A stretch of DNA of 64,000 nt from Psychroserpens algicola (lineage in GTDB: Bacteria; Bacteroidota; Bacteroidia; Flavobacteriales; Flavobacteriaceae). The stretch covers positions 62,001 to 126,000 of the forward strand of contig NZ_JACNMJ010000003.1 of NCBI RefSeq assembly GCF_014526325.1. Direction: 5' to 3'. Within the stretch, counting starts at the first letter, position 1, and each line of letters begins with the position of its first letter. Of the stretch, positions 25,104 to 27,368 are shown piece by piece. A program made the position numbers and the translations under genes. The notes beneath the pieces are model-generated. The model made no database searches, had not been told where the DNA came from, and worked only from the letters and a program-made list of their open reading frames with translations.

Positions 25104-25515
25104 GCAAAGCGAAGCGCATGCAAAATTGAGATTATCGCTTATCCCGAACTAGATTCGGGATCTCATAGCAGTATTAAAAGCAAAGCGAAGCGCATGCAAA
25201 ATTGTGATTATCGCTTATTCCGAACTGGATTCGGGATCTCATAGCAGTATTAAAGGCAAAGCGAAGCGCATGCAAAATTGAGATTATCGCTTATCCCGAA
25301 CTAGATTCGGGATCTCATAGCAGTATTAAAAGCAAAGCGAAGCGCATGCAAAATTGAGATTATCGCTTATCCCGAACTGGATTCGGGATCTCATAGCAGT
25401 ATTAAAAGCAAAGCGAAGCGCATGCAAAATTGAGATTATCGCTTATTCCGAACTGGATTCGGGATCTCATAGAAGTACTAAAAGTAAAGCGAAGCGCATG
25501 CAAAATCGAGATTAT
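25104..25515. repeat. tandem array of 76-bp units (5 full, 1 partial)
   Basis: Units begin with GCAAAGCGAAGCGCATGC at 25104, 25180, 25256, 25332, 25408 and (partial, GTAAAGC) 25484, exactly 76 bp apart. Each unit holds GCATGC, an AAGCG/CGCTT pair and a hairpin CCCGAACTAGATTCGGG followed by ATCTCATAG. That hairpin is a variant of the dispersed palindromic element. Units differ at only a few sites (for example ATTCCGAACTGG in units 2 and 5), so the duplications are recent. The array fills most of the 444-bp gap between the mutase stop and the toxin gene. Confidence 0.92.
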
Positions 25516-25531
25516 TTCTTTTTTGATTATT

Positions 25532-25819
25532 TTAAAGAATATGATCTAAATCTTGTTTTCCTATTATTGTCATTATTTCAATAATTTCTCCATTTATTTT
25601 GAAAAAAATACTGTCAGATCCACAAACACATCTTCGATATCCCTTTTTTATATAATCGACCGATTCAAAAGAAAATGGTCTTTGAGCAATAATTTTAAAA
25701 TAATCAAAAAAGGAGTTATAATATTTGTCAGCTTGAGTAATCCCAAACGTATTAACGCCATAATGATGAATTCTTATTAAATCTTCTTTAGCTGTATTAC
25801 TTATTCTAAATTCAGCCAT
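25532..25819 (-). CDS. RelE/ParE-family toxin
   Basis: A 95-residue toxin of a type II toxin-antitoxin pair. The ParE-like pattern is clear: FRISNTAKEDLIRIHHYGVNTFG at the start, PFSFESVDYIKKGYRRCVCGSDSIFFKINGEIIEIMTIIGKQD at the end. ParE members poison DNA gyrase while RelE members cut mRNA; sequence alone does not decide. The start overlaps the antitoxin stop by 8 bp, so the two are translationally coupled. It lies next to the tandem array. Confidence 0.88.
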   Translation of the reverse strand: MAEFRISNTAKEDLIRIHHYGVNTFGITQADKYYNSFFDYFKIIAQRPFSFESVDYIKKGYRRCVCGSDSIFFKINGEIIEIMTIIGKQDLDHIL

Positions 25820-26051
25820 TGAGTAAGTCCTTCGATTGTTTTAGAATTTGCGATTTACTGTCAGAAGTAAATCCGCTATTTTCAGCTCTTTCCAGCTTCG
25901 TTCTAATCCAATCAATTTGAACCTGTTGATTTCTTGCTTGTCTAATTAAATCATTGACTAATTCACTCTTACTTGAATATTCTTTATTGTCAACTTGATT
26001 TTTCAACCATTCATCATTGGGTTCTGTAAATGATATACTTTGTCTAGCCAT
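25812..26051 (-). CDS. ParD-family antitoxin
   Basis: A 79-residue ribbon-helix-helix protein. The N-terminal DNA-binding part (RQSISFTEPNDEWLKNQV, then YSSKSELVNDLIRQARNQQ) is typical for ParD/CC2985-type antitoxins, and the C-terminal helix would wrap the toxin. It is first in a two-gene operon with the toxin. A near-perfect 22-bp palindrome just upstream is the likely autoregulation site. Confidence 0.88.
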   Translation of the reverse strand: MARQSISFTEPNDEWLKNQVDNKEYSSKSELVNDLIRQARNQQVQIDWIRTKLERAENSGFTSDSKSQILKQSKDLLNG

Positions 26052-26082: not shown

Positions 26083-26217
26083 TATGAATCTTGTACAAGT
26101 TTTTATAATTATTGCAGCAAAGAGGTCAAGCAAACGTACATTCTTTAGTGAAATCATTACTTAAATTCAATGGTCTTAAAAAAGTTTCTCAAAAATGCAT
26201 CTTTTTTAAAACTCTCA

Positions 26218-26226
26218 CGTCTATAG
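26218..26226 (+). promoter_or_regulatory. possible ECF-type -10 element CGTCTATAG
   Basis: CGTC is a common core of ECF sigma -10 boxes. It lies 24 bp before the Cys-rich peptide ATG. A matching GTAAC-like -35 was not found, so this is only suggestive. Confidence 0.3.
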
Positions 26227-26250: not shown

Positions 26251-26352
26251 ATGAATTCTATAAATTGTACTTGTAACTGTGAAGGTTGCAAAGATGGAAA
26301 TTGTAACAACTGTACATGTGATAATTGTACATGTAGTAATTGTAACTGTTAA
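26251..26352 (+). CDS. cysteine-rich small peptide (33 residues, 11 Cys)
   Basis: ATG at 26251, TAA at 26350-26352. Eleven of 33 residues are cysteine, at 6, 8, 10, 13, 18, 21, 23, 26, 28, 31 and 33, set in C-x-C and C-x2-C pairs (NCTCDNCTCSNCNC). The rest is mainly Asn, Thr, Asp, with no hydrophobic core and no signal peptide. This spacing is like metallothioneins, so metal binding in the cytoplasm is the best guess, but no known family is recognised. The gene for a SigZ-like sigma factor begins 78 bp downstream on the same strand. Ten of 11 Cys codons are TGT. Confidence 0.62.
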   Translation: MNSINCTCNCEGCKDGNCNNCTCDNCTCSNCNC

Positions 26353-26430
26353 GTTATATGTAAATATTTAATTCGTAATGTCTGTTTTGGTAACTTTATA
26401 CTAGAATAGGCATTGCTTATTTTTAGGAGT

Positions 26431-26976
26431 ATGACAACAACTAAAGACATATGGAAACAGTACGCAGAGGTCATTAAATACTTTATTTTGAGTAAAGTTA
26501 AAGACGTTTCTGTAGCCGATGATTTACTTCAGGAAACCTTTATTAAAGTACATACGAAGCTAGAAACACTTAAAGACGATGATAAGGTGAAGTCCTGGTT
26601 GTTTTCAATCGCTAGATATACAGTTTTGGACTATTTCAGGCAGCGCGATCTTGTTTATGAAACTTCAGATGAAGACTTTATTTTTGAAGACCAGAAGTTA
26701 GAACATACTAAAGTCGACTGTTTGCGCGGCATTATTAAAAGTTTACCCAAAAAGTATCGCGATCCTTTGTTTTTAAGCGATATAAAAGGTCTTAAACAAG
26801 CGCAGGTTTCTAAGCAATTACATTTACCATTACCTACTGTAAAATCTCAAATACAACGCGGAAGAAAACTCATTGCTCAAGGTTTCGTCGACTGTTGTGA
26901 TTTTAAAGTCAATGACGACGGATACTTAGTTGGTGAGTTAAAAGAAAAAGCCGATTGTAAAGTGTGTAACCATTAA
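26431..26976 (+). CDS. ECF-type sigma-70 factor, SigZ-like
   Basis: A 181-residue alternative sigma factor. Region 2 is DLLQETFIKVHTKLETLKDDDKVKSWLFSIARYTVLDYFRQ; region 4 is LPKKYRDPLFLSDIKGLKQAQVSKQLHLPLPTVKSQIQRGRKLI. After region 4 comes a short tail with CC (GFVDCCDF) and C-x2-C (ADCKVCNH), as in SigZ relatives. This could bind metal or sense thiol state. The ATG at 26431 is used; an upstream TTG only adds six residues. No anti-sigma gene is next to it, so the tail or the neighbouring Cys-rich peptide may have the sensing role. Stops overlap with the convergent gene by 4 bp. Confidence 0.88.
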   Translation: MTTTKDIWKQYAEVIKYFILSKVKDVSVADDLLQETFIKVHTKLETLKDDDKVKSWLFSIARYTVLDYFRQRDLVYETSDEDFIFEDQKLEHTKVDCLRGIIKSLPKKYRDPLFLSDIKGLKQAQVSKQLHLPLPTVKSQIQRGRKLIAQGFVDCCDFKVNDDGYLVGELKEKADCKVCNH

Positions 26977-27368
26977 AGTGTCATCATCCAGCGATGTTGT
27001 AATCGCTTAAACTTTCTCAATTCACTTTGTAAAATTGGTAAGTAATCTTTACCATTGCTATTACAATGCTGTAAACGATTACAGTTAAGATGTAATCGAT
27101 GCGTTAAGCGCTCAATAGAAGCTAAATGTTTGTGTTTTTTTTCTGAAAAACGCTCAGCTTGAGCTTTTTCTATTTCGGGAGCTAGTGATTCTGATTGTTG
27201 AACAATATCTCCAGAAAAATAGATGTCTGTATCTTCACTACCATCAGGACGCAAATACGATAAATCCTGATTGATATAGGTAGAGATGCTTCTTGATAAG
27301 ACAAGAATATCCATAGCCTTTTGATATATAGGCAGTTCAGATAAGTGAGATGGGATATTATAATTCAT
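26973..27368 (-). CDS. helical protein of unknown function
   Basis: A 131-residue, soluble, all-helical protein with no signal peptide. The N-terminus LPIYQKAMDILVLSRSISTYI and later amphipathic helices (ESLAPEIEKAQAERFSEKKHKHLASIERLTHRLHLNCNRLQ) recall small four-helix bundle proteins of the S23/avd type, but the match is weak. A PDGSEDTDIYFSGDI loop splits the first and second helices. It is convergent with the sigma-factor gene and divergent from the Lrp regulator. It may be in the same response unit, though only position suggests this. Confidence 0.55.
   Translation of the reverse strand: MNYNIPSHLSELPIYQKAMDILVLSRSISTYINQDLSYLRPDGSEDTDIYFSGDIVQQSESLAPEIEKAQAERFSEKKHKHLASIERLTHRLHLNCNRLQHCNSNGKDYLPILQSELRKFKRLQHRWMMTL

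Follow-up and report, generated by a model that had tools for sequence, protein, structure and literature searches.

A 33-residue peptide with 11 cysteines and the SigZ-like ECF sigma factor encoded just behind it probably form a self-contained homeostat for soft metals or metalloids, in which a sigma factor working without an anti-sigma factor and a putative metal-buffering peptide share one autoregulated operon. We put the probability of this reading at about 0.7. In the proposed mechanism, a soft metal or metalloid would bind the sigma factor's own cysteines (Cys 97, a CC pair and a C-x2-C tail) and so render it active. The active factor would transcribe from the near-private promoter of its own operon, whose conservation we observed and whose activity is predicted from it. 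The first gene would then yield the metallothionein-like peptide in excess, and a hairpin behind it would pass part of the transcripts on into the sigma factor gene. By taking up metal, the peptide would protect the cell and strip the sigma factor, closing the loop.

The unit lies in the 64,000-nucleotide stretch of Psychroserpens algicola DNA that we analysed as a whole (the window; Table 1). The sigma factor gene, with its ATG at 26431 and its stop at 26976, is on the same strand as the peptide gene and begins 78 bases 3' of the stop of the latter; the first-pass annotation had reported this arrangement of a 33-residue, 11-cysteine frame and a sigma factor gene, and coordinates and translation confirm it. 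Its statement that no anti-sigma factor is adjacent also agrees with our scan of five window neighbours against Pfam and NCBIfam, in which no anti-sigma family was found and the peptide and a 131-residue protein matched nothing. An adjacent anti-sigma factor is usual, but not obligatory, for members of the ECF group, and none was recognised at the window locus. The neighbours scanned included no metal genes. One window neighbour of the sigma factor gene encodes an Lrp/AsnC-type regulator. Upstream of the two-gene unit, directly after a methylmalonyl-CoA-mutase-like gene (named by eye), is a tandem array at 25104-25515 (76-base unit, 5.4 copies, 95% matches) whose unit contains the inverted repeat CCCGAACT..ATTCGGGATC.

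Table 1. Positions in the window of the two-gene unit and the features beside it
Feature	Position	Strand	Details
ParD/ParE type II toxin-antitoxin pair	25532-26051	-	Between repeat array and peptide promoter; named by Pfam/NCBIfam scan
Candidate ECF-type promoter of the two-gene unit	26196-26226	+	TGCATCTTTTTT (-35 side) ... CGTCTATAG (-10 side); 17 bases from TGCATC to GTCTA
Cys-rich metallothionein-like peptide gene	26251-26352	+	33 aa, 11 Cys, CxCxCx2Cx4Cx2CxCx2CxCx2CxC
Terminator-like hairpin in the peptide/sigma gap	26375-26416	+	18 pairs, loop of 6, then TTATTTTTAG
SigZ-like ECF sigma factor gene	26431-26976	+	181 aa; Cys 97, 155, 156, 176 and 179 invariant
131-aa ORF convergent with the sigma factor gene	26973-27368	-	No matches in Pfam/NCBIfam

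To collect related loci, we searched genome contigs with the sigma factor and used the best 80 of 124 relatives, a set therefore biased towards close kin; some of these loci apparently duplicate genomes of our genus set, and close kin are not independent. Their record titles name genera that we take to belong to the Flavobacteriaceae, or just Flavobacteriaceae, Flavobacteriales or Bacteroidia. The first-pass annotation had proposed looking for Cys-rich frames upstream of the sigma factor gene in relatives and had named their absence as a refutation; the result went the other way. A search that at first made no use of cysteine spacing found such a frame, on the same strand, at all 80 loci, with 11 cysteines in each (12 in L016). 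At 79 of them the frame ends no more than about 135 bases from the sigma factor match (about 700 bases in L085). A strict pattern of 11 cysteine codons in the spacing given in Table 1, followed by a stop, also matched at 80 out of 80 loci. With four genus loci added, the 84 rows comprised 75 distinct peptides, and both TGT and TGC were used at every one of the 11 cysteine positions. The 131-residue protein gene was present at 49 of the 80 loci and an Lrp/AsnC-type regulator gene at 47.

We then counted ORFs by a fixed criterion (ATG start, at most 60 residues, at least 7 Cys and at least 20% Cys). This yielded 80 ORFs near the sigma factor gene and none elsewhere in the same 80 loci (544,076 bases). 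Nor did any occur in the flanks of 40 wider SigZ loci (224,536 bases) or around 15 non-SigZ ECF genes in the window genome (14 stretches, 44,014 bases). Sigma factor and peptide were also distributed together. Within the genus set, 7 of 23 genomes carried the sigma factor (E <=1e-40), the same seven carried the peptide, and both were absent from the other 16. In a phylum sample, the peptide family was present in 5 out of 395 genomes, each time adjoining a SigZ match. We conclude from the conservation of the reading frame that it is a real gene (ORF 26251-26352, + strand; product MNSINCTCNCEGCKDGNCNNCTCDNCTCSNCNC) and not a chance frame.

One could suppose instead that the Cys-rich frame is untranslated and that the conserved element is an RNA leader or a terminator of the sigma factor gene, a possibility that the conserved hairpin 3' of the frame would suit. 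The 11 cysteine codons and the stop, however, stay in frame at all 80 loci while TGT and TGC alternate, and no Rfam match was found near the peptide gene. Because of this codon evidence and the absence of Rfam matches nearby, we rejected the RNA-only reading as very improbable.

At 33 residues with 11 cysteines, the translated peptide has the size and composition of a metallothionein (some 30% Cys, arrayed as CxC and Cx2C), and the metallothionein-like C-x-C and C-x2-C spacing noticed in the first pass proved to be fixed at the 80 loci. We found no match to described metallothionein families in Pfam (E <=10), NCBIfam (<=0.1) or PDB chains (E <=1), searches for which short peptides are hard material. 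The second half of the gene (26302-26344) is a degenerate 15-base repeat of 2.9 copies, as if the cysteine array had grown by duplication.

Upstream of the peptide gene, we found the consensus TGCATCTTTTTT-N10-CGTCTATTATATGAAC, with the near-invariant core TGCATCTTTTT-N-CGTCTA. This promoter motif was present in 80 out of 81 upstream regions, the window included, with a constant 17 bases from TGCATC to GTCTA; the sole exception was L078. In the motif-bearing regions, the end of the -10 hexamer lies 23-28 bases before the peptide ATG. Excerpts of a study of Flavobacterium psychrophilum treat a CGT box at -10 as a sign of ECF promoters (PMC9723704). The motif matched once in the 64-kb window, against 0.01 matches expected. 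Across the genus, the exact pattern at 17-base spacing occurred once in each of the seven sigma-bearing genomes and was absent from the remaining 16, and two shorter-spaced matches (G006 and G021) compared with one in a backward control. All three patterns that we used, from exact to looser, gave a single site in the window genome. Over all 23 genomes of the genus, these patterns gave 2, 1 and 9 extra sites, compared with 1, 8 and 32 in the backward controls; given this comparison, none of them stands out, and we dropped the idea of a wider regulon in the window genome or the genus, the extra sites lying at background. A sigma factor devoted mainly to a single target, its own operon, would be expected to show such a distribution. 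From these sites, the sigma factor appears to activate the two-gene unit and little else.

The gap between the two genes folded stably (z below -2, 60 mononucleotide shuffles) in 76 of 77 loci, the test having omitted three of the 80 with gaps of 5, 13 or 705 bases. The hairpin is not universal, since two of the 80 loci are nearly gapless and one has the 705-base gap. Compensating changes were found at 10 of 16 pairs of a 16-pair stem in 26 aligned rows, and the covariation score of 0.514 exceeded both the mean for shuffled alignments (0.284) and the values obtained by sliding (0.089 to 0.172); the 26 rows had been picked as alignable, and the structure was derived from the same alignment. A terminator scan of the window, weak on its own, gave three such sites in 2.5 kb versus 0.9 in shuffles. 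Together, the stem and the tract that follows it have the terminator-like shape of a candidate intrinsic terminator, the likely effect of which would be more peptide message than sigma factor message.

The sigma factor itself scored above the Pfam gathering thresholds for Sigma70_r2 (47.5 bits) and Sigma70_r4_2 (49.7 bits), so that both regions of an ECF factor are present. Its best-matching named family was SigZ, with 156.1 bits for TIGR02959 and 172.9 bits for PRK09637, scores that fall short of the curated cut-offs of 168.65 and 212, respectively. The earlier label of a SigZ-like ECF sigma factor holds, and because both scores lie under the cut-offs we keep to 'SigZ-like'. The window genome has one gene of this kind; its 15 other matches are ECF factors with 23-33% identity. 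In plasmid records, we found ten SigZ relatives with 26-35% identity (E <=1e-15).

Five cysteines are invariant in 29 close relatives of the sigma factor: Cys 97 before region 4 (between regions 2 and 4), Cys 155 and 156, the CC pair with which region 4 ends, and Cys 176 and 179, which form a C-x2-C tail. The CC and C-x2-C at the end of the protein had been described in the first-pass annotation, and the translation bears them out. An AlphaFold model of the sigma factor (pLDDT 82.7) had a pTM of 0.44, too low to show whether the five cysteines meet; the structures that matched it best were those of ordinary ECF factors.

We looked for SigZ-type factors more widely in the phylum sample, in which 52 of the 395 genomes had a SigZ match (E <=1e-30). 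These gave 53 places, of which we read 52, leaving out that in G412; 12 of the 52 were covered to about 1.5 kb per side and judged by a looser criterion. A small Cys-rich frame was found near 18 of the 52 loci, comprising the window's peptide family at 5 out of 12 and other designs at 13 out of 40. The other designs included peptides of 36-41 residues with CxC and Cx2C spacing, 12-14 Cys and a CC or CCN end, peptides of 26-27 residues (TECTCxECDC...) and a 43-residue peptide with 13 Cys, with others besides. One of the 18 paired loci is doubtful (L152, G264:C20): its frame is a Gly-Cys one with 8 Cys, and the sigma factor gene is cut by the contig end. That Gly-Cys frame stands behind a SigZ-type promoter motif.

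A similar motif preceded 10 of the 12 other SigZ-peptide units tested, all except L140 and L144. At four loci (L158-L161), a peptide of a different type is encoded downstream of the sigma factor gene; there, the motif stands before the sigma factor gene and a second copy stands before the peptide gene, found by the standard pattern in L158-L160 and by a looser pattern alone in L161. Across 40 phylum SigZ loci (299,966 bases), a pattern drawn up after the paired loci had been inspected gave 27 matches on the sigma factor strand, in 22 loci, and one on the opposite strand. The backward control gave 0 and 1 by strand, and 30 shuffles averaged 1.5 matches on both strands (maximum 4). The remaining 18 of the 40 loci had no motif on the sigma factor strand. 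Around the non-SigZ ECF genes of the window genome, the pattern matched once in 44,014 bases. The single opposite-strand match of the 40 loci (L166) lies about 0.36 kb upstream of the sigma factor gene, before a divergent MATE-type-like efflux gene (named by eye).

In a tree that combined 26 sigma factors paired with a peptide and 34 unpaired ones (60 in all), the paired label required 5 changes, compared with 19.6 for shuffled labels, and well-supported branches require at least three of the five. Peptide pairing is thus clustered on the sigma factor tree, yet not confined to one side of a single branch. All five cysteines were kept in 26 out of 26 paired factors. Among the 34 unpaired ones, the tail cysteines were kept in 24 to 29 and Cys 97 in 13; since the rows are related, we regard a possible tie between Cys 97 and peptide pairing as a lead.

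These comparisons bear on what the peptide does. The first-pass annotation had named it a target, a sensor or a buffer of the sigma factor. Its role as a target is the best supported of the three, given the conserved ECF-type promoter and the second motif copies, and a role as a metal buffer follows by inference. A specific sensor or anti-sigma role is less likely, given that Cys spacing and position vary among the peptides that partner other SigZ-type factors. One could nevertheless take the peptide for a soluble redox- or zinc-dependent anti-sigma factor, which would bind the sigma factor through a shared metal and be released when oxidised or demetallated. It adjoins, and is inherited together with, an ECF factor whose scanned neighbours showed no recognised anti-sigma family, both proteins have conserved cysteines, and the excess of peptide message implied by the hairpin would suit an anti-sigma factor too. 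The partners of other SigZ-type factors, however, vary in Cys pattern, length and position, a poor fit to a specific partner; moreover, in a 45-row alignment of the window's peptide family just Met1 and the 11 Cys were invariant, with G16, T22 and N32 at >=90%. Because peptide designs vary while the promoter stays similar, a metal sink is favoured over a specific anti-sigma partner, and we consider the latter unlikely.

Genes near the unpaired SigZ-type factors indicate what such factors might respond to. A similar motif stands before arsenite methyltransferase (ArsM) genes in L141, L164 and L165, before ArsI/CadI genes in L167 and L170, and before a small thioredoxin-like gene plus a permease in L145 and L173; in L145, L167 and L173, its second element is GACT, not GTCT. 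Our NCBIfam scan, which had no control neighbour set, covered 20 proteins from 14 of 27 unpaired loci, picked by eye as metal-like or standing behind a motif, and gave metal(loid) families above curated cut-offs at 11 of the 27 loci: ArsM at three, ACR3 at two, ArsI/CadI at four, a copper P-type ATPase at two and MerTP with an ArsR-type regulator at one. L170 carries both ArsI and ACR3, and in L137 the ArsI gene is separated by another gene. Counting L145 and L173, which were below the cut-off, 13 of the 14 scanned loci gave a metal(loid) family; the other (L138) gave a PhzF isomerase. PhzF-like isomerase genes lie 3' of SigZ-type factors in both L138 and L175, and the NCBIfam name applies to L138 alone. 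The gene in L138 stands behind the motif TGCGTCTTTTT-N-CGTCTA and may be a target outside metal detoxification.

The metal response proposed in the first-pass annotation gains support from these sigma factor relatives near arsenic, copper and mercury genes, some of them behind a similar motif. The same neighbours argue against a thiol or oxidative stress unit, in which the peptide would be a thiol reservoir, the sigma factor cysteines would form disulfides and metals would have no direct part. CC and CxxC motifs can act as redox switches, and the wider neighbourhoods of the 80 related loci include OsmC-like genes (32 of 80) and disulfide-reductase-like genes (YpdA-like; 25 of 80), all named by eye. 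These genes nevertheless lie outside the operon, and we rate such a unit as quite unlikely. Where present (for example in L016), most of them are found either about 0.7 kb before the sigma factor gene or 2.2 kb behind it.

Returning to the metal homeostat, genes near the sigma factor relatives point to arsenite, copper or mercury as candidate metals; for cadmium and zinc, CorE2 is the precedent. Mammalian metallothionein has a four-metal alpha domain that likewise contains eleven cysteines; because this count equals that of the peptide, one might start from an assumed capacity of about four divalent ions. A broader reading, to which we give even odds, is that the Bacteroidota possess, in their SigZ-type factors, a large and so far overlooked class of one-component sensors for soft metals and metalloids, all sharing one promoter code (TGyrTC-TTTT-N-cGTCT). 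Their target slot would have been refilled repeatedly, either with detoxifiers (ArsM, ArsI, efflux pumps) or with miniature thioneins of unrelated design and more than one origin. The paired class would be marked by the extra cysteine before region 4, which would make a composite metal site with the tail.

If the homeostat reading is true, metal-sensing ECF factors without an anti-sigma factor are commoner than the CorE examples suggest, and thioneins are frequent in the Flavobacteriaceae, where their small size makes them easily overlooked. A sigma factor with an apparent one-operon regulon would also be an unusually clean natural metal biosensor. The ingredients, a metal-sensing ECF factor and a metallothionein, are known; we rate the arrangement as not found described in the literature searched, and the peptide families match no model. 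Passages on SigZ or on metallothioneins from that literature did not describe such a pair, and by term counts no paper in the joint search contained both SigZ and metallothionein. The nearest named family is SigZ of Bacillus subtilis (TIGR02959, PRK09637), with the window factor below both cut-offs. The table of a 2023 review lists SigZ as an ECF factor without a function (PMC10141391); nameless in function in that one table, SigZ would gain a directly testable one.

SmtA/BmtA-type and MymT metallothioneins have roughly 50-60 residues, whereas the window peptide is shorter (33 residues), contains no His and has no sequence match. The pairs of SmtA/BmtA with the repressor SmtB and of MymT with RicR, as given in excerpts of two papers, also place a small Cys-rich peptide under a dedicated metal sensor (PMC12193353, PMC10141476). 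Control in the window would differ in that an activating sigma factor takes the place of a repressor. OrbS of Burkholderia cenocepacia resembles the window factor in being an ECF factor whose cysteines are grouped at the end of region 4.2 and beyond it, a cluster described for OrbS as sensing metal directly; Fe(II), however, inhibits OrbS, whose targets are siderophore genes (PMC9023288).

Among the closest known parallels are CorE and CorE2 of Myxococcus xanthus (former ECF44, now ECF238). Two papers describe them as ECF factors without an anti-sigma factor, with Cu(II) as the activator of CorE and Cd(II)/Zn(II) as that of CorE2, and with cysteines both in an extension at the C terminus and in the linker that joins regions 2 and 4 (PMC8999054, PMC9023288); a survey reports CorE homologues from marine bacteria of several phyla (PMC10141476). 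The window factor likewise has cysteines in the linker and the C-terminal tail and no recognised anti-sigma factor. It differs in its apparent target, a Cys-rich peptide in place of an oxidase or ATPase, and in that its metal response is a prediction. The spacing of the C-terminal Cys domain differs as well: the window factor has CC-x19-C-x2-C and, in its linker, the single invariant Cys97 and no CxC, in contrast to a CxC together with the C-x4-C-x2-C-x-C domain of CorE or the CC-x3-C-x2-C-x-C domain of CorE2 (PMC9023288). Because of this difference in spacing, the window factor is not a CorE by the defining motifs but may work like one.
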